64,000 nt of DNA. Source: an uncultured Nitrospira sp. GTDB taxonomy: Bacteria; Nitrospirota; Nitrospiria; Nitrospirales; Nitrospiraceae. The translations under genes and the position numbers were made by a program. Below the pieces are notes generated by a model. The model was not told where the DNA came from and did no database searches. It saw only the letters and a list, made by a program, of their open reading frames with translations. Location: NCBI GenBank assembly GCA_902500995.1, contig CABVSR010000013.1:1-64000 (forward strand), given 5' to 3'. Positions 5,018 through 63,641 of the stretch are shown here, piece after piece (the first letter of the stretch is position 1; every line of letters starts with the position of its first letter).

Positions 5018-6484
5018 TTATTCCCAATCGGTGCGATAATTGGGCGCTTCTTTGGTGATGATGACGTCGTGCACGTGTCCTTCGCGGAGCCCGGCCAATG
5101 TCTGGCGGATGAAGGTGGCCTTCTGCTGCAGATCGGGGATGGTCTTGCAGCCGCAATAACCCATACCGGACTTCACGCCGCCCACCATTTGATAGATATG
5201 CGGCGCGAGCAGCCCCTTGTACGGCACGCGACCTTCGATGCCTTCCGGAACCAGCTTCGGTGTCGGCCGTCCGCCCTGTCCATACCGATCACCGCCGCCG
5301 CGTTCCATGGCCCCGATGGACCCCATTCCGCGGTACACCTTGTAGGTTCGCGCTTGGAACAGCACTGTCTCCCCGGGAGCTTCTTCCGTACCGGCCAGCA
5401 AGCTTCCGAGCATGACCACTGAGGCGCCCGCGGCCAAGGCTTTCGTAATATCCCCCGAATACTTAATGCCGCCGTCGGCAATGACCGGGATTCCTGAGCC
5501 GGCCAAGGCCCTGGCGCAATCGGCGATCGCCGTCAATTGCGGCATACCGGCACCCGAGACCATGCGCGTGGTGCAAATCGAGCCTGGCCCGACCCCGACT
5601 TTCACGGCATCGACGCCCGCTTTCACCAGATCTTTAGCCGCCTGAGCCGTCGCAATGTTGCCGGCAATGATATCCAGTTTTGGATAGGCTTTCCGGACCA
5701 TCTTGACCGTATCGAGCACCGCTTGCGAATGGCCGTGCGCCGTATCGACTACGACAACATCCACTCCGGCTTTCACGAGCAAGTCCACCCTGTCTCTGGT
5801 ATCAGGACCGACGCCCAGCGCCGCGCCGACGCGCAATCGCCCATGAGCATCCTTGCACGCGTTGGGGTACTTGATCCGCTTTTCAATGTCTTTGATCGTG
5901 ATCAGGCCCTTGAGCTCGAACTGCTTGTTCACCACCGGCAGCTTCTCAATCCGGTGCTCGTGCAGGATCTCGCGAGCCTTTTCCAAACTGGTCCCTTCCG
6001 GTGCGGTGATGAGCTTGTCGCGCTTCATCACCTGAGAAACCTTGAGCTCCATCCTGGTCTCAAACCGCAGGTCGCGGTTCGTCAGGATGCCGACCAACTT
6101 GCCGCCCTTGGTCACAGGAATGCCGGAGATCCGGTACTTGGCCATGAGGTCGTGGGCATCGCGAATGGTTTGATCAGGCGAGATGGTGATCGGATCAAGA
6201 ATCATCCCGCTTTCGGATTTCTTCACCCGATCGATTTCAGCGGCCTGATCGGCCGGGGACAGGACGCGATGGACAATGCCGATCCCGCCCTCTTGGGCCA
6301 TCGCAATGGCGAGGCGCGCTTCGGTCACAGTATCCATTGCCGCGCTGACAATGGGAATGTTCAGGTGTATGTTCCGAGAGAGGCGAGTGCGGGTATCGAC
6401 TTCGGTTGGAAGCACTTGCGATTTAGCCGGAACCAGGACGACGTCGTCATAGGTCAACCCGAGCCGAATCTCCTTCTCTAACAT
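5018..6484 (-). CDS. guaB: Inosine-5'-monophosphate dehydrogenase
   Basis: Oxidises IMP to XMP with NAD+, the committed step of guanine nucleotide synthesis. At 488 residues it is the full-length bacterial form. The TIM barrel is interrupted by a pair of CBS domains (about 95-205), and the active-site loop [11 protein letters not shown] places the catalytic cysteine at 304. The end (YRTDWE) is typical of the family. It is the first gene of a guaB-guaA pair that runs on towards the pseudouridine synthase and aspS genes. The large NHL-repeat gene upstream is on the same strand but 38 nt away and functionally unrelated. Confidence 0.98.
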
Positions 6485-53293: not shown

Positions 53294-54892
53294 TTAAGCA
53301 GGGAGCGGTTGAGGTGTGAGCCCGGCCGCATCGTTGCCGGACGCTGCCGGCTTCGCGGACCCCGCCGGTTTAGGTACAGCCTTTCCTCGCACGCGGTGCA
53401 TTTTGTCCCTTGTATGATACGGCATGAGGTTTTCCAGAACGGCCGGCAGTTTGTCGCACGGCACGTCCTCCATGATTTTGGTTGCCGGTTTCGGATCCGG
53501 TCCCGAACGGCCACCCACGAAGATATCGACGGCATCGACCACTTTGCCGCCCACTCGAGCTTTCTTACCGAGCAGCCCGATATCCGCGACGAGGTGATTG
53601 CCGCACCCGGCCGGGCACCCGGACCAGTGCAGCGTAATCGGCTTGAGTCCCTCCCCCAACTTCCGTTCCAGAGCGTGCGCCGTTTCAACCGCCCGCCCCT
53701 TGGTTTCAATCACGGCGAGATTGCAATAGTCGCTGCCCACACAGCTAACCAGCCCTTTGTAGAGCGGTGACGGATTATAGGCAAATTGCTTCACCAGCGG
53801 TTCCTCGGCCAATTCGCCCACGACGCGGTCGTTGATGTGCGGAATCACGAAAGCTTGCGCAGGCGACAGGCGCACCTCCCCCGTCCCGTATCGATCTGCC
53901 ACCGCGGCGATGTTGCGGAGATCGACGGCCTTGATCCTTCCCACCAAGACCTTCAGGCCGATATAGTTCAAGCCGCGTTGCTTTTGCCGGAAAATGCCGA
54001 TGTGATCGCGCTCGCCCGCCGCCCTGGCATCGACTCCTGCCGGCGACAATGAACGACCCATGCGCGTCTCCACCTCGTGCCGTAGCCTGGTCTCACCCCA
54101 CGCTTCCACCAGAAATGCCAACCGAGCCTGGGTGCGATTTTCACGCGGTCCGTGATCACGGTAGATGTGCAACAGCGTCCGGCAGACCTCGAAGGCTTCC
54201 GCGGGATTCACAAACATGTCCAACGAACTGGCGATGCGATATCCTCCTGAACCCAGCTTGCCGCCGACCAATACGTTGTACCCGAAACATTTGTCGTGCC
54301 CTAAATCATGATAGGCCGGCACCAGCGCGATATCCTGCGTCTCCGTGTGGAGGCAGTTGTCCGTACAGCCGGTGACCGCAATATTGCACTTGCGCGGCAA
54401 ATTCGTATAAGCCGGGTTCCCCAACACCTCCTGATTGAGGGCACGAACGATGTCGGTTCCATCCATCAACTCATTCGGATTCAAACCTGCGACCGGGCAG
54501 GTCATGACGTTGCGCACGCTGTCCATCCCGGTTTGCATCGACGTGAGCCCGACTTCTTCCAATTTGGCAAAGACCGCCGGCACGTGGGCGATCGTCAGAT
54601 GGCGAAGTTGCACTTGCTGCCGCGTGGTCACGTCGACCACGCCGTTGCCGTAGGCGAGGGCGATGTCCGCCAAAGCTTGCAGTTGAACCGAGGTGGTTTG
54701 CCCGCCCGGCATGCGCACGCGCAGCATGAAGTGCCCCGGCGTCGGATTCCGCAGAAACAACCCGTACCATTTCAGCCGTTGGATGTCGTCTTCCGGAATT
54801 GTTTCCCACCCTGCTTGCGCATAATGTGCCAACCTCTCGCGAACCGACAATCCGTCTCCCTCTGACTTGATCGCTTCAATTTTGTTCATCAC
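53294..54892 (-). CDS. nirA: Ferredoxin-type assimilatory nitrite reductase
   Basis: Six-electron reduction of nitrite to ammonium in the cytoplasm with reduced ferredoxin. 532 residues with two ferrodoxin-like half-domains and two sirohaem-binding halves. Cluster/sirohaem cysteines Cys384, Cys390, Cys426 and Cys430 form the C-x5-C-x35-C-x3-C pattern (SCVGSDYCN; SGCPAGCGN). NVMTCPVAGLNPNELMDG and LPRKCNIAVTGCTDNC fit nitrite rather than sulfite reductases, but sulfite reductase cannot be fully excluded. A Pro/Ala-rich C-terminal tail is extra. The start overlaps the stop of the small wHTH-like gene (ATGA). Confidence 0.93.
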   Translation of the reverse strand: MMNKIEAIKSEGDGLSVRERLAHYAQAGWETIPEDDIQRLKWYGLFLRNPTPGHFMLRVRMPGGQTTSVQLQALADIALAYGNGVVDVTTRQQVQLRHLTIAHVPAVFAKLEEVGLTSMQTGMDSVRNVMTCPVAGLNPNELMDGTDIVRALNQEVLGNPAYTNLPRKCNIAVTGCTDNCLHTETQDIALVPAYHDLGHDKCFGYNVLVGGKLGSGGYRIASSLDMFVNPAEAFEVCRTLLHIYRDHGPRENRTQARLAFLVEAWGETRLRHEVETRMGRSLSPAGVDARAAGERDHIGIFRQKQRGLNYIGLKVLVGRIKAVDLRNIAAVADRYGTGEVRLSPAQAFVIPHINDRVVGELAEEPLVKQFAYNPSPLYKGLVSCVGSDYCNLAVIETKGRAVETAHALERKLGEGLKPITLHWSGCPAGCGNHLVADIGLLGKKARVGGKVVDAVDIFVGGRSGPDPKPATKIMEDVPCDKLPAVLENLMPYHTRDKMHRVRGKAVPKPAGSAKPAASGNDAAGLTPQPLPA

Positions 54893-55083
54893 GCGTCCCC
54901 CAATGCGACGGAATAGTCCGGTCCGGATTTTCTCAACACCACCGCCCCCTCTCGGCTCAATCGATCCACCACCAGCAAGATCTGTGACGCGCTCAGACCA
55001 GAGAGGGCCATCAATTCCTCGAATGACTGCGGCGCCTGCCGCCGGAGAAGCGTCAGCACTGCGGTTTCTTCATTCGTCTTCAT
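54889..55083 (-). CDS. Small winged-helix-like protein between cynS and nirA
   Basis: 64 residues from the ATG at 55083, preceded by GGGAGGAC. FEELMALSGLSASQILLVVDR looks like a helix-turn-helix recognition unit and REGAVVLRKSGPDYSVAL like a wing. Translationally coupled to nirA. It could be a tiny DNA-binding regulator or a NirA partner. Confidence 0.6.
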   Translation of the reverse strand: MKTNEETAVLTLLRRQAPQSFEELMALSGLSASQILLVVDRLSREGAVVLRKSGPDYSVALGDA

Positions 55084-55136
55084 GATGTCCTCCCTTCGTC
55101 TGAGTGCGCTACAGCGGCACCGGTTGACCGATCCGC

Positions 55137-55577
55137 TTAAAACGTCTTGTACTCGAGCCACTTGCCGTTCAGCGTGATCTTGCAGCGAGCTTCTCCCTGG
55201 CTGCCGGTGACTTTTTCCATATCCAGGGTGAAGTCGATCGCGCTCATAATTCCGTCGCCGAACATTTCATTCGCCATCTCCCGCATGGAATCTCCGTAGA
55301 CCCCGATGACTTCCATCAGGCGATATTTAAACGGGTCCGTCGCATTGGGAAAATCGGCCCGGATAGGGAACGTGCTCAGGGCGCTGATTTGTTCCTTATC
55401 CAAATCCAGCAGCCTTCCCACTTTGCTCGCTTCATCCGGTGACAGCCGGTGGTTGCCGTTCAACGCCGCGGCAACGAACGTCGGATTCTTGCCGACCGCC
55501 TTCGCCACCTCTGCAATCGTGACTTTCTTGTTCAACCGTTGCTCCTTGATCGCCTTTCGCATCGCGTCCTTTTCCAT
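55137..55577 (-). CDS. cynS: Cyanate hydratase (cyanase)
   Basis: Converts cyanate and bicarbonate to ammonia and CO2, letting the cell use cyanate as a nitrogen source and detoxify it. 146 residues from 55577 (MEKDAMRKAIKEQRL). N-terminal HTH-like domain (1-75) and the C-terminal catalytic domain with Arg86 and Glu89 in YRLMEVIGVYG and Ser112 in GDGIMSAIDF, spaced like Arg96/Glu99/Ser122 of E. coli cyanase. No cynT carbonic anhydrase is adjacent. Confidence 0.96.
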   Translation of the reverse strand: MEKDAMRKAIKEQRLNKKVTIAEVAKAVGKNPTFVAAALNGNHRLSPDEASKVGRLLDLDKEQISALSTFPIRADFPNATDPFKYRLMEVIGVYGDSMREMANEMFGDGIMSAIDFTLDMEKVTGSQGEARCKITLNGKWLEYKTF

Positions 55578-55635
55578 TATTTCCTCCAATATGTGAATTG
55601 ATCCGCCTGCCATGATGCGCGCTCGCCATTCCGCT

Positions 55636-56466
55636 CTACGATCCGACCACCGCTGATGTGGCCGGGCTGGACACCGGTGCCACCGGAGCTTCGGCTACAC
55701 GATAGGGACTCACCATCCAGTACAGCCCACCGACAAACAATCCGCCGCCGACCAGATTCCCGAGCACGACAAATAGCTGGTTGTACCAAAAGGCCGCCCA
55801 GGTCACGGTCGCCTCATGCGGTAACAAGAGCGCCATGCCCAGTAGCGATTGGTTCGCGATGCTGTGCTCGAAGCCCGTGCCGATAAAGGCGAACAGGCAC
55901 CAGAAGATCAGCAAGATCTTGGCCGTGTCGTTGCTGGTTCGTCCGCTCATCCAGACGGCCAGGCAGATCAGCCAATTGCAGAGAATGCCCCGCACAAACA
56001 GCTCCCAGGCCGGAAGCGACATTTTCACCGCCGCCACCTTTTCGATGAGCTCTGCCGTCGGGCCCTTTGCAAAGACACCCGATTGCACGATCAACCAGGC
56101 CAGTCCCATCGAGCCGGCGAGATTTCCAATCCACGACCAGGCATTGAGTTGAATGACTTGCGACCAGGAAAGGCTTCGTGAGAGGCCGCCGACGACGCCG
56201 ATTAAATTGTTTCCCGTGAACAGCTCCGAACCGGCAAAAATCACGAGCGTCAGGGCAATGCCGAACGACACCCCCATGACGAGTTTCACCACCGGCGACC
56301 CGGCCGCCGCCAATGGCCCTCCGAGGCTGAAGATCAACGCGATGCCGAACCCGAGATAGATCCCGGCCAGAGCCGCCAGAATGACATACCCGCCCGGCGA
56401 CCGTTCGAAAAACGACCACTTCTTTGCCGCCACTCCTGCGATTCGCTCATGATCCGCTGTATGCAT
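55636..56466 (-). CDS. nirC: Formate/nitrite transporter family channel (NirC-like)
   Basis: Inner-membrane nitrite (or nitrite/formate) channel, normally a pentamer. 276 residues from 56466 (MHTADHERIAG), preceded by AAAGGAGA. Six hydrophobic helices; GSELFTGNNLIGVVG and GTGFEHSIANQSLLG are the two FNT signatures, the latter with the conserved His. First gene of nirC-cynS-wHTH-nirA, after a leader containing two terminators. Confidence 0.92.
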   Translation of the reverse strand: MHTADHERIAGVAAKKWSFFERSPGGYVILAALAGIYLGFGIALIFSLGGPLAAAGSPVVKLVMGVSFGIALTLVIFAGSELFTGNNLIGVVGGLSRSLSWSQVIQLNAWSWIGNLAGSMGLAWLIVQSGVFAKGPTAELIEKVAAVKMSLPAWELFVRGILCNWLICLAVWMSGRTSNDTAKILLIFWCLFAFIGTGFEHSIANQSLLGMALLLPHEATVTWAAFWYNQLFVVLGNLVGGGLFVGGLYWMVSPYRVAEAPVAPVSSPATSAVVGS

Positions 56467-56505: not shown

Positions 56506-56553
56506 AAAAAAAAAGACGCCCTCATCCCGCAATTGGGAAAGGAGGACGTCTTT
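56506..56553 (-). terminator. Second intrinsic terminator in the nirC leader (T2)
   Basis: On the minus strand AAAGACGTCCTC (56553-56542) pairs with GAGGGCGTCTTT (56523-56512), 12 bp with one G-U, followed directly by the rest of a nine-T run (56514-56506). nirC starts 40 nt later, so this is an attenuator, not an operon end. Confidence 0.9.
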
Positions 56554-56612
56554 GTCCTGTTCGGCGAGGTCCTACACCTCGTCGTTATGGTGTGCCGACT
56601 TCAGCGTCGGCA
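56543..56612 (-). promoter_or_regulatory. Second antiterminator-like hairpin unit before T2
   Basis: Minus strand: hairpin TGCCGAC-GCTGAA-GTCGGCA (56612-56593), a small hairpin CGAGGT/ACCTCG (56581-56565), then AGGAC-AAAGAC-GTCCT (56558-56543). The last has an A1/G4 hexaloop and shares its loop and 3' arm with the T2 stem, so the two folds exclude each other. The first hairpin's loop has G4 but G instead of A at position 1. Confidence 0.6.
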
Positions 56613-56618
56613 GAAACT

Positions 56619-56660
56619 AAAAAGGCGTCCGCCACTCTTGGAAGAATGACGGACGCCTTT
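56619..56660 (-). terminator. First intrinsic terminator after glnA / in the nirC leader (T1)
   Basis: Minus strand AAAGGCGTCCG (56660-56650) pairs with CGGACGCCTTT (56631-56621), 11 perfect bp, 18-nt loop, ending in TTTTT (56623-56619). It ends glnA read-through and prematurely stops transcripts from the promoter at 56757. Confidence 0.9.
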
Positions 56661-56710
56661 GTCCGTGTGCCGTATGTGATGCAGGTTCGATGTCAGGCGC
56701 CATTGCCTGA
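56649..56710 (-). promoter_or_regulatory. ANTAR-type tandem hairpin antiterminator (nirC leader)
   Basis: Minus strand hairpin P1: TCAGGC-AATGGC-GCCTGA (56710-56693); after 26 nt hairpin P2: ACGGAC-AAAGGC-GTCCGT (56666-56649). Both are perfect 6-bp stems with six-base loops having A at position 1 and G at position 4, the recognition pattern of ANTAR regulators (NasR, NasT, EutV). P2's loop and 3' arm are the 5' arm of terminator T1, so P2 and T1 are mutually exclusive. P1 begins about 12 nt after the predicted transcription start. Confidence 0.8.
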
Positions 56711-56728
56711 TCTCCCCCGCGCCCTGCA

Positions 56729-56757
56729 TGTATACCATCGCCTCCAGGATTCGTCAA
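56729..56757 (-). promoter_or_regulatory. Promoter of the nirC-cynS-nirA leader
   Basis: Minus strand TTGACG (56757-56752), 17-nt spacer, TATACA (56734-56729) with a preceding TGG (extended -10). It lies just beyond the glnA stop codon and points into the hairpin leader. Confidence 0.7.
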
Positions 56758-56783: not shown

Positions 56784-58193
56784 CTACACGTCGTAGTACA
56801 GGAAGAATTCGTACGGGTGCGGCCGCAGCCGCATGGTATCGACTTCCTTGGTCCGCTTGTACCCGATCCACGCCTCGATGAGATCTTCGCTGAACACCCC
56901 CCCCTTGAGAAGGAATTGATGGTCCTTCTCCAGGTGGTTGAGGGCCTCGTCGAGGCTGCCCGGCATAGTGCGGATCTTAGCCGCTTCCTTGGCCTCGAGA
57001 TCGTACAAATCCTTTTCCGCCGGTTCTCCCGGATTGATCTTATTCTCGATCCCATCCAGGCCCGCCATCAGCATCGCGGAAAAGGCCAGGTAGGGATTGG
57101 CGGCCGGGTCCGGGAACCGGACTTCGATCCGCTTCGCCTTCGGGCTCGGGGAATACATGGGGATCCGGATACCGGCCGACCGGTTGCGGCTCGAATAGGC
57201 CAACAACACCGGCGCTTCGAAGCCCGGCGTCAACCGCTTATACGAGTTGGTCGAGGGATTGGTGAGCGCAGCCAGCGCAGGTGCATGCTTCAGAATGCCG
57301 CCGATGTAGTGGAGGCACATTTGGGAGACGCCGGCGTATTCTTTCCCGGCAAAGAGCGGCTTGCCGTCCTTCCAAATGCTCTGGTGCGTGTGCATGCCCG
57401 ATCCGTTATCGCCGAAGATGGGCTTCGGCATAAAGGTGACGGTCTTGCCGTGCCGGCGCGCCACGTTCTTGACGATGTATTTGAACATCATCATTTTGTC
57501 CGCCGTGCGTAACAGGCTATCGAAGCGGATATCGATTTCTGCCTGGCCTGCCGTGGCCACTTCGTGGTGATGCTTTTCGGTGGCGATCCCCGCCTTTTCC
57601 ATCTCGAGAATCATTTCCGTGCGGATGTCCTGCTGCGTATCGGTCGGCGCCACGGGGAAATAGCCTTCCTTGTGACGGATCTTGCCGCCTAGGTTGACGC
57701 CTTCCTGGCCCATGTTCCACACGCCTTCATCGGAATCGATGTGGTAGTACGCGCTGTGGTTCGTCTGGTCGTAGCGGGCATGGTCGAAAATGAAGAACTC
57801 GGCCTCCGGCCCCCAGTACGAGGTGTCGCCGATCTTAGTGCTCTGCAGATATTTTTCCGCCTTCTGGGCGATGTACCGCGGATCGCGATCGTACATTTCC
57901 CGCGTGATCGGATCGACGACATTGCCGATGAGGCTCAGGGTGGGCACCGAACAAAACGGATCCATGCAGGCGGTTGCCGGGTCCGGCACGAGCAGCATGT
58001 CGCTGTTGTTGATCGCTCTCCAACCGCGAATCGACGAACCATCAAGCCCGGAGCCGTCCTTGAACAGGCCTTCGGTCAACTCGCTGACAGGAATAGTAAA
58101 ATGCTGCCAGGTGCCGATCAGGTCGACGAACTTCATGTCGACGACCTGGACCTTATTCTTCTTTGCAAACTCTAACACCTCACGAACGTTCAT
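56784..58193 (-). CDS. glnA: Glutamine synthetase type I
   Basis: Central ammonium-assimilating enzyme; dodecamer. 469 residues with [13 protein letters not shown] (substrate/metal loop), [15 protein letters not shown], the [19 protein letters not shown] region and the NRSAGIRIP block. Tyr397 in [10 protein letters not shown] is the adenylylation site and has the same number as in E. coli, consistent with the GlnE-like pair in this window. Follows glnD by 52 nt; GGAGGAGGGG precedes the ATG. Confidence 0.98.
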
Positions 58194-62765: not shown

Positions 62766-63641
62766 TTAAAACGTCTTCGTGAACTTCAACTTATAAAAAT
62801 CCTGATTGTCTGTCAGATCTTTCCCTGCCGTGAACCGGAAGGCCATGTTCCCGGGCAGCTTCATTTCAACGTAGGGACCGATCCAGCGATAGTAATCTTG
62901 AGCCGCCCCCGGCGCGCTACTGTCGCGCGTCGTCAACAAATGCTCATAGTGAGCCCCGACAGACCACATGCTGTTCACCCGCACGCCGAGGTTCGCCCAG
63001 TAGTGCAGAAAGTCCCAGGTGCCCCGGCCGCCGGTCTGGCTGGTGCCCAAGCAATTCGTATCGACGAGGCCGCTGCAACCGGTTGCGCCGCCCCCTCCGC
63101 TGCCGCCCTCGCTACGGATCGCTTTGTAGTAGCCCAGATAGAACTCGCCCTCGAAACGATCGTCGAGGTAGTTCGCGATGATATTGGGTACGACGCCTTC
63201 AAATGCGGTGGTCCGCTCATTGACGCTCCCGCCGCCGTTCGGGAAAAACCCGCCGCGTGACGAGAGGAGTTGACCATGCACGAAACCGATCATCGGTGTG
63301 ACGGACAATCGTTTGTCCAACAGGGTGAAATTCAAGCCCACATCCGTTTCGAGCCAGGGCGCGTTATCGTGCACACCGATGCCGTTGATCATGGTCCAAT
63401 ATGTGAAATTAAACGCGAGGGCGATGTTATCGGTCAGACCGTAGGTCCCATAAATAGATGGATTGAAGCCGAAAAAACTGTCGGCCTGCATCGCCATCGT
63501 CACCGATACCGGGTGCTTGGTGGTGTCCATCAGGTCGTCCGTCGCAGCCTGCGCCTCGGCACATACTCCTCCCACTCCAAGAACCATTAAGGTTACGCCC
63601 AACACCCATGCCCGTGCCTGTCGCCCAACCAGCATATTCAT
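62766..63641 (-). CDS. Outer-membrane beta-barrel protein upstream of amt
   Basis: 291-residue precursor with signal peptide (about 5-32, ending AEAQA) and alternating amphipathic strands ending in Phe (KLKFTKTF), the C-terminal phenylalanine signature of outer-membrane barrels. Predicted porin-like; linkage to amt suggests a path for ammonium or small nitrogen compounds across the outer membrane, but specificity is not shown. GGAGG precedes the ATG. Confidence 0.8.
   Translation of the reverse strand: MNMLVGRQARAWVLGVTLMVLGVGGVCAEAQAATDDLMDTTKHPVSVTMAMQADSFFGFNPSIYGTYGLTDNIALAFNFTYWTMINGIGVHDNAPWLETDVGLNFTLLDKRLSVTPMIGFVHGQLLSSRGGFFPNGGGSVNERTTAFEGVVPNIIANYLDDRFEGEFYLGYYKAIRSEGGSGGGGATGCSGLVDTNCLGTSQTGGRGTWDFLHYWANLGVRVNSMWSVGAHYEHLLTTRDSSAPGAAQDYYRWIGPYVEMKLPGNMAFRFTAGKDLTDNQDFYKLKFTKTF

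Follow-up and report, generated by a model that had tools for sequence, protein, structure and literature searches.

The leader in front of the nirC-like gene of this uncultured Nitrospira is highly likely to consist of two serial ANTAR-controlled attenuators, which would belong to a nitrogen-assimilation regulon governed by a GAF-ANTAR protein through transcription antitermination. We propose that the single ANTAR protein of the genome very probably overrides the two serial terminators. Nitrospira are among the main bacteria that oxidise nitrite in soils, waters and treatment plants, and no regulator that decides nitrite or cyanate assimilation in these bacteria is described in the open-access literature. 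The finding offers one protein, candidate RNA sites and a predicted regulon for Nitrospira nitrogen assimilation.

We analyzed a window of 64,000 nucleotides, in which the leader occupies the minus-strand interval between the stop codon of glnA and the ATG of the nirC-like gene (Table 1). Its promoter lies 27 nt past the glnA stop and is followed by P1, P2 and the terminator T1. The initial annotation had described this promoter, two perfect 6-bp hairpins with hexaloops, and an intrinsic terminator formed from the loop and 3' arm of the second hairpin, and each of these elements is present on the minus strand exactly as described. The promoter was not called by the promoter scan, given that TATACA lacks the final T demanded by the strict -10 rule. 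The same description stopped at T1 and missed a second module downstream of it (56612-56506, minus strand), in which Ha, Hb, P2' and T2 follow in series.

Table 1. Features of the glnA-nirC leader, the genes around it and the nadE leader of the same genome
Feature	Position	Strand	Basis or remark
glnA (glutamine synthetase), upstream gene	56784..58193	-	ORF, stop at 56784; relatives' loci carry glnA 85-100% identical
Leader promoter TTGACG, 17 nt, TATACA	56729..56757	-	TTGACG 56757-56752; TATACA 56734-56729
P1 hairpin TCAGGC-AATGGC-GCCTGA, loop AATGGC (A1, G4)	56693..56710	-	sequence and folding
P2 hairpin ACGGAC-AAAGGC-GTCCGT, loop AAAGGC (A1, G4)	56649..56666	-	sequence and folding
T1 intrinsic terminator; 5' arm = P2 loop and P2 3' arm	56614..56660	-	-30.6 kcal/mol; model R1 53.2 bits
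Ha, upstream hairpin of module 2, TGCCGAC-GCTGAA-GTCGGCA, hexaloop GCTGAA (G1, G4)	56593..56612	-	folding
Hb, variable spacer hairpin CGAGGT-GTAGG-ACCTCG, pentaloop	56565..56581	-	sequence and folding
P2' hairpin of module 2, AGGAC-AAAGAC-GTCCT, loop AAAGAC (A1, G4)	56543..56558	-	sequence and folding
T2 intrinsic terminator, U9; 5' arm = P2' loop and 3' arm	56506..56553	-	-24.9 kcal/mol; model R1 62.3 bits
nirC-like formate/nitrite transporter, first gene behind leader	55636..56466	-	PF01226; ATG at 56466
cynS, cyanase	55137..55613	-	PF02560, PF21291
Small winged-helix-like ORF between cynS and nirA	54889..55161	-	MarR E 7e-4, below Pfam cut-off
nirA, assimilatory nitrite reductase	53294..54892	-	PF01077, PF03460
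nadE leader of the window's genome	G000:C13:60000-72000, position 5750 of that segment	-	covariance-model match

The pairing of T1 spans 56660-56621 (18 bp, -30.6 kcal/mol, z -9.2), and folding of the whole leader gave a z of -8.2, about eight standard deviations below the shuffled sequences. According to the computed structures, P2 and T1 are mutually exclusive, as are P2' and T2. The terminators are far more stable than the hairpins they exclude (T1, -30.6 versus -8.7 kcal/mol for P2; T2, -24.9 versus -5.9 kcal/mol for P2'), and therefore termination would be the default state, with readthrough needing a protein. A strict scan of the 64-kb window (stem of at least 5, A1/G4 hexaloop, overlapping terminator of at least 12 bp) returned two matches, compared with none in 40 dinucleotide shuffles. 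Two other A1/G4 scan matches, at 63313 and 8597, were rejected as chance, their terminators being imperfect and of 8-11 bp. An Rfam search near the leader yielded four weak matches, none of them relevant; the only one on the leader itself, a sub-threshold match to P11 (E 0.12), corresponds to the terminator stem.

We also considered ANTAR control of the opposite sense, or control at translation through hairpins near the ribosome site. Other ANTAR targets have been reported that have no terminator or are located at ribosome sites (PMC3369931). In the present leader, however, each of the two modules overlaps a strong terminator with a U tail, and the end of T2 precedes nirC by 40 nt and the Shine-Dalgarno sequence by about 27 nt. 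The terminators, and not the ribosome site, are therefore the obvious targets, and we regard control of this other kind as highly improbable.

Next, conservation was analyzed within the genus. A close nirC occurs in 24 of 29 genus genomes, and the order glnA-leader-nirC is kept in 23 of these 24. In-frame TGA codons flagged in nirC paralogues were attributed to alignments that run beyond the stop codon. Throughout the 23 leaders, loop positions A1, A2 and G4 are invariant in P1, P2 and P2', and position 3 varies (consensus AAYGRC for P1, AANGG[C/T] for P2 and AANGRC for P2'). The initial annotation had looked to orthologous leaders for conserved stems and A1/G4 positions, and this conservation holds in all 23. 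In the loop of Ha, position 4 is G in 22 leaders, and position 1 is split between G (21 leaders) and A (2 leaders). The TTGACG and TATA of the promoter are invariant with a variable spacer, the linkers have an average entropy of about 0.9-1.0 bit per column, and the sequence of Hb drifts across the 23 species. P1 takes part in no terminator; therefore, the invariance of its loop is not attributable to terminator pairing. An ANTAR target RNA is recognized by two hairpins of at least 3 bp each with A1/G4 hexaloops and by a terminator whose 5' arm overlaps P2. P1 and P2 form such a pair in 23/23 leaders, and the overlap is found at both T1 and T2. In module 2, P2' conforms to the dual A1/G4 rule and Ha does not.

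Two pairs of the P1 stem have changed on both sides among the 23 leaders. P2 and T1 show almost no variation within the genus, as would fit strands that each have two alternative pairing partners, so that covariation at this level supports mainly P1. The compensatory evidence for the terminator comes from pooled leaders, not from the genus leaders alone: in the pooled hairpin/terminator units 98% of cells are paired, and 29 double changes were counted against 7.9 expected, a value reached in 0 of 500 shuffles. In the nadE leaders (n = 19, 56% mean identity), what persists is P1 and P2 with A1, A2 and G4.

The 4-Mb genome was then searched with a covariance model (R1) built from 34 hairpin/terminator units. 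The search gave exactly three real matches (62.3, 54.0 and 53.2 bits); the match ranked fourth, at 17.9 bits, is one of these three sites read on the opposite strand. All three belonged to the building set of the model, so that the scores they obtain cannot serve as independent evidence; the result of the search is the lack of such units elsewhere in the genome. T2 is the top-scoring match of the genome. The third match, besides T1 and T2, is the nadE leader, which lies on the minus strand 1.7 kb past the window end and includes a separate promoter-like sequence as well as a P1-P2 pair; nadE there heads the run DUF6733-amtB-glnB-glnD-glnA. The regulon in the window's genome is defined by model and pattern searches.

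To characterize the upstream partner hairpin, we used 115 hairpin/terminator units as anchors and took the best upstream hexaloop hairpin of each, with any loop sequence allowed. Such a hairpin was present in 89/115 units, compared with 12% of random window positions. Among these 89 partners, 87 have G4 and 59 have both A1 and G4 (random A1/G4, 0.5%). Their spacing peaks at 43-44 nt, where every one is A1/G4, and a second peak at 55 nt corresponds to Ha of module 2. In the EutV structure, G4 stacks on Tyr164, whereas no specific contact between A1 and the protein is seen (PMC8934654), and the relaxed first loop position of Ha is plausible for this reason.

The ANTAR-domain protein that the initial annotation had called for was found. 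Its gene is the sole one of its kind in the genome (G000:C13:67340-68674, minus strand, 70.8 bits) and is found 3.4 kb past the end of the window, in the same orientation as the leader; exactly one such gene occurs in each of the 29 genus genomes (29/29). A regulator of the NasR or NasT kind had been expected, and this proved right as to the ANTAR domain and wrong as to the rest, since the protein consists of two GAF domains and ANTAR only, with neither the NIT domain typical of NasR nor the receiver or pseudo-receiver domain typical of EutV and NasT. When aligned with EutV, whose RNA contacts are given in PMC8934654, the protein is identical at R142, K143, K149, E160, M172 and R175; K147 is replaced by R, Y164 by F and R168 by Q (these last two as in Rv1626 of M. 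tuberculosis), N173 by D and R177 by S. The nearest solved structures to the first GAF are a conserved-domain protein and PtsP-type phosphotransferase GAFs, with the regulator nlh1 lower in the list; this likeness hints, at most, at nitrogen status. The GAF-ANTAR class was reported as uncharacterised in 2012 (PMC3369931), and the finding supplies a GAF-ANTAR protein with candidate targets.

We also compared the distributions of regulator and leader across 175 genomes of the family, of which 104 have ANTAR and 107 have at least one covariance-model match. In good genomes (completeness of 90% or more, contamination of 5% or less), leaders were found in 71 of 73 with ANTAR and in 0 of 41 without. 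The mismatches comprise seven genomes with a leader and no ANTAR, all less than 90% complete, and four with ANTAR and no leader match. In the genus of G054 (G052-G130), which we take to be the N. moscoviensis-type genus, leader matches occur in 14/14 ANTAR-positive and 1/65 ANTAR-negative genomes. An exact 14-base motif gave a Fisher p of 2.5e-12 in this genus, with a flat reversed control pattern; this and the other co-occurrence statistics ignore kinship, and because the genomes are related they should not be read as counting independent events. In the same genus amoA is present in 48 of the 65 ANTAR-negative genomes and in one of the 14 ANTAR-positive ones, a 54% complete assembly. ANTAR and amoA are almost mutually exclusive there; the circuit marks nitrite oxidisers, not comammox, and the leader system is missing from most comammox relatives. 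Its presence or absence is thus tied to the split between the two. A nitrogen-anabolism cluster has been reported to be absent from comammox (PMC12342949), and in six ANTAR-negative genomes that we examined glnA is present without the leader or a nirC operon behind it. The whole glnA-linked operon is missing in these six, so that part of the co-occurrence is accounted for by the joint loss of a block of genes. Together, the co-occurrence and the missing assimilation block indicate that regulator, leaders and assimilation block are inherited together.

These distributions also bear on the idea that the leader is a constitutive or ligand-driven attenuator, such as a riboswitch or the target of another RNA-binding protein, that resembles an ANTAR RNA. 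The alternation of P2 with its terminator would work with any ligand, binding of the ANTAR protein to the leader is a prediction, and the one Rfam match on the leader is the P11 match at the terminator. However, there is no conserved aptamer-like core beyond the small hexaloop hairpins, the A1/G4 pattern and the 43-44 nt spacing speak against this idea, and leader presence tracks the ANTAR gene genome by genome. We therefore assign this explanation only a very small probability and retain ANTAR-controlled attenuation.

Behind the glnA-linked leader stand nirC-cynS-nirA in the window and in most of the genus, and in relatives nrtA (G017, G002 and several other genera), cynS-amtB-amtB (G004) or cynS-nirA (G013), where gene names such as nrtA and nirB come from reading the sequences and from locus similarity, not from a family search. 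N. defluvii has a nirC-type leader. The genes behind the switch are thus exchanged among relatives while the leader stays. Other leaders across the family precede nadE, porin-amtB, amtB, a porin adjoining the ANTAR gene, nirB (G017; L100, position 3256, minus strand) and lipoprotein genes. In G004 a further dual-hexaloop pair with an overlapping terminator and a weak U-tract lies between cynS and amtB (L101, about 5740-5825, minus strand). In many relatives (L098, L102, L104, L106, L107, L112, L113), a separate dual-hexaloop leader precedes the porin-like gene that lies directly 3' of the ANTAR gene; no leader of this porin type was found in the window's genome. The antitermination switch for nitrite and cyanate assimilation suggested by the initial annotation is therefore supported as a reading and too narrow in extent, given the two serial modules and the leaders before nadE, amtB, nrtA, nirB and porins. 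Judged from the genes that follow them, the leaders appear to make up a regulon for nitrogen assimilation and not a switch confined to nitrite and cyanate. In other Nitrospira, nirA or onr is expressed without ammonium (PMC12342949).

That T1 and T2 are plain strong terminators of glnA, with incidental hexaloop hairpins, is highly improbable and was rejected: they are indeed strong terminators, and the nirC/nrtA-type leader always lies behind glnA, but a conserved promoter separates glnA from P1, the P1 loop keeps A1, A2 and G4 outside every terminator, like units stand before nadE, amtB, nirB and porins away from glnA, the six ANTAR-negative genomes have glnA without such a leader, and leader and ANTAR gene closely co-occur.

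Based on these results, we propose the following course of events for ANTAR-controlled antitermination. RNA polymerase would initiate downstream of glnA, at the leader promoter, and would in the default state stop at T1, or at T2 once past T1. The active GAF-GAF-ANTAR protein would bind the hexaloop hairpins, P1 with P2 and then Ha with P2'. In both P2 and P2' it would hold the loop and the 3' arm; T1 and T2 would then be unable to form, and nirC-cynS-nirA would be transcribed. The signal may be nitrogen shortage sensed by the GAF domains. The same protein would also control the nadE leader and, in relatives, homologous leaders before nrtA, cynS, nirB, amtB and porins. Taken as a whole, the Nitrospira ANTAR circuit is a strongly supported prediction from sequence. 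A wider proposal, to which we give slightly less than an even chance, is that GAF-GAF-ANTAR serves nitrite-oxidising Nitrospiraceae as the master regulator of nitrogen limitation and acts on several antitermination leaders per genome, that the circuit is absent from comammox, and that module 2 is read via a relaxed R1/G4 pair.

As the initial annotation supposed, we found no description of an ANTAR system in Nitrospira in the open-access literature outside Table S2 of Ramesh 2012, where N. defluvii may be listed. Open-access searches on comammox and antitermination found nothing, and those on Nitrospira and antiterminator found only a wastewater-community study. Among known systems, the EutV/eutP-type leaders of Enterococcus faecalis share the dual A1/G4 hexaloop hairpins, the P2-overlapping terminator and most of the ANTAR RNA-contact residues. 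However, EutV has a phosphorylated receiver where the Nitrospira protein has a GAF-GAF sensor, its leaders serve ethanolamine rather than nitrogen assimilation, and the Nitrospira leader has two serial modules, the second with G1 in its upstream hairpin. The NasR/nasF leader of Klebsiella likewise combines a one-component ANTAR regulator, a nitrite/nitrate assimilation operon and an overlapped terminator, whereas the Nitrospira protein lacks the NIT nitrate-sensing domain and its regulon includes nadE and amtB. NasS-NasT of proteobacteria also uses an ANTAR protein for antitermination of nitrite/nitrate assimilation genes, but the Nitrospira protein has no receiver domain. The GnfR system of Geobacter is another possible parallel. 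Desulfotomaculum and Pelobacter also have ANTAR nitrogen regulons, described in a study that scanned 1902 genomes (Ramesh 2012, PMC3369931), in which one motif recurs in front of ammonium transporter, nitrite reductase and further nitrogen genes, with several units per operon and 13 matches in six transcription units. Those regulons belong to other phyla, and nadE, cynS and nirC are not named as targets in the accessible text of that paper. Thus, other phyla already provide examples of ANTAR nitrogen regulons in which one operon carries several attenuators, and the Nitrospira instance is apparently new.
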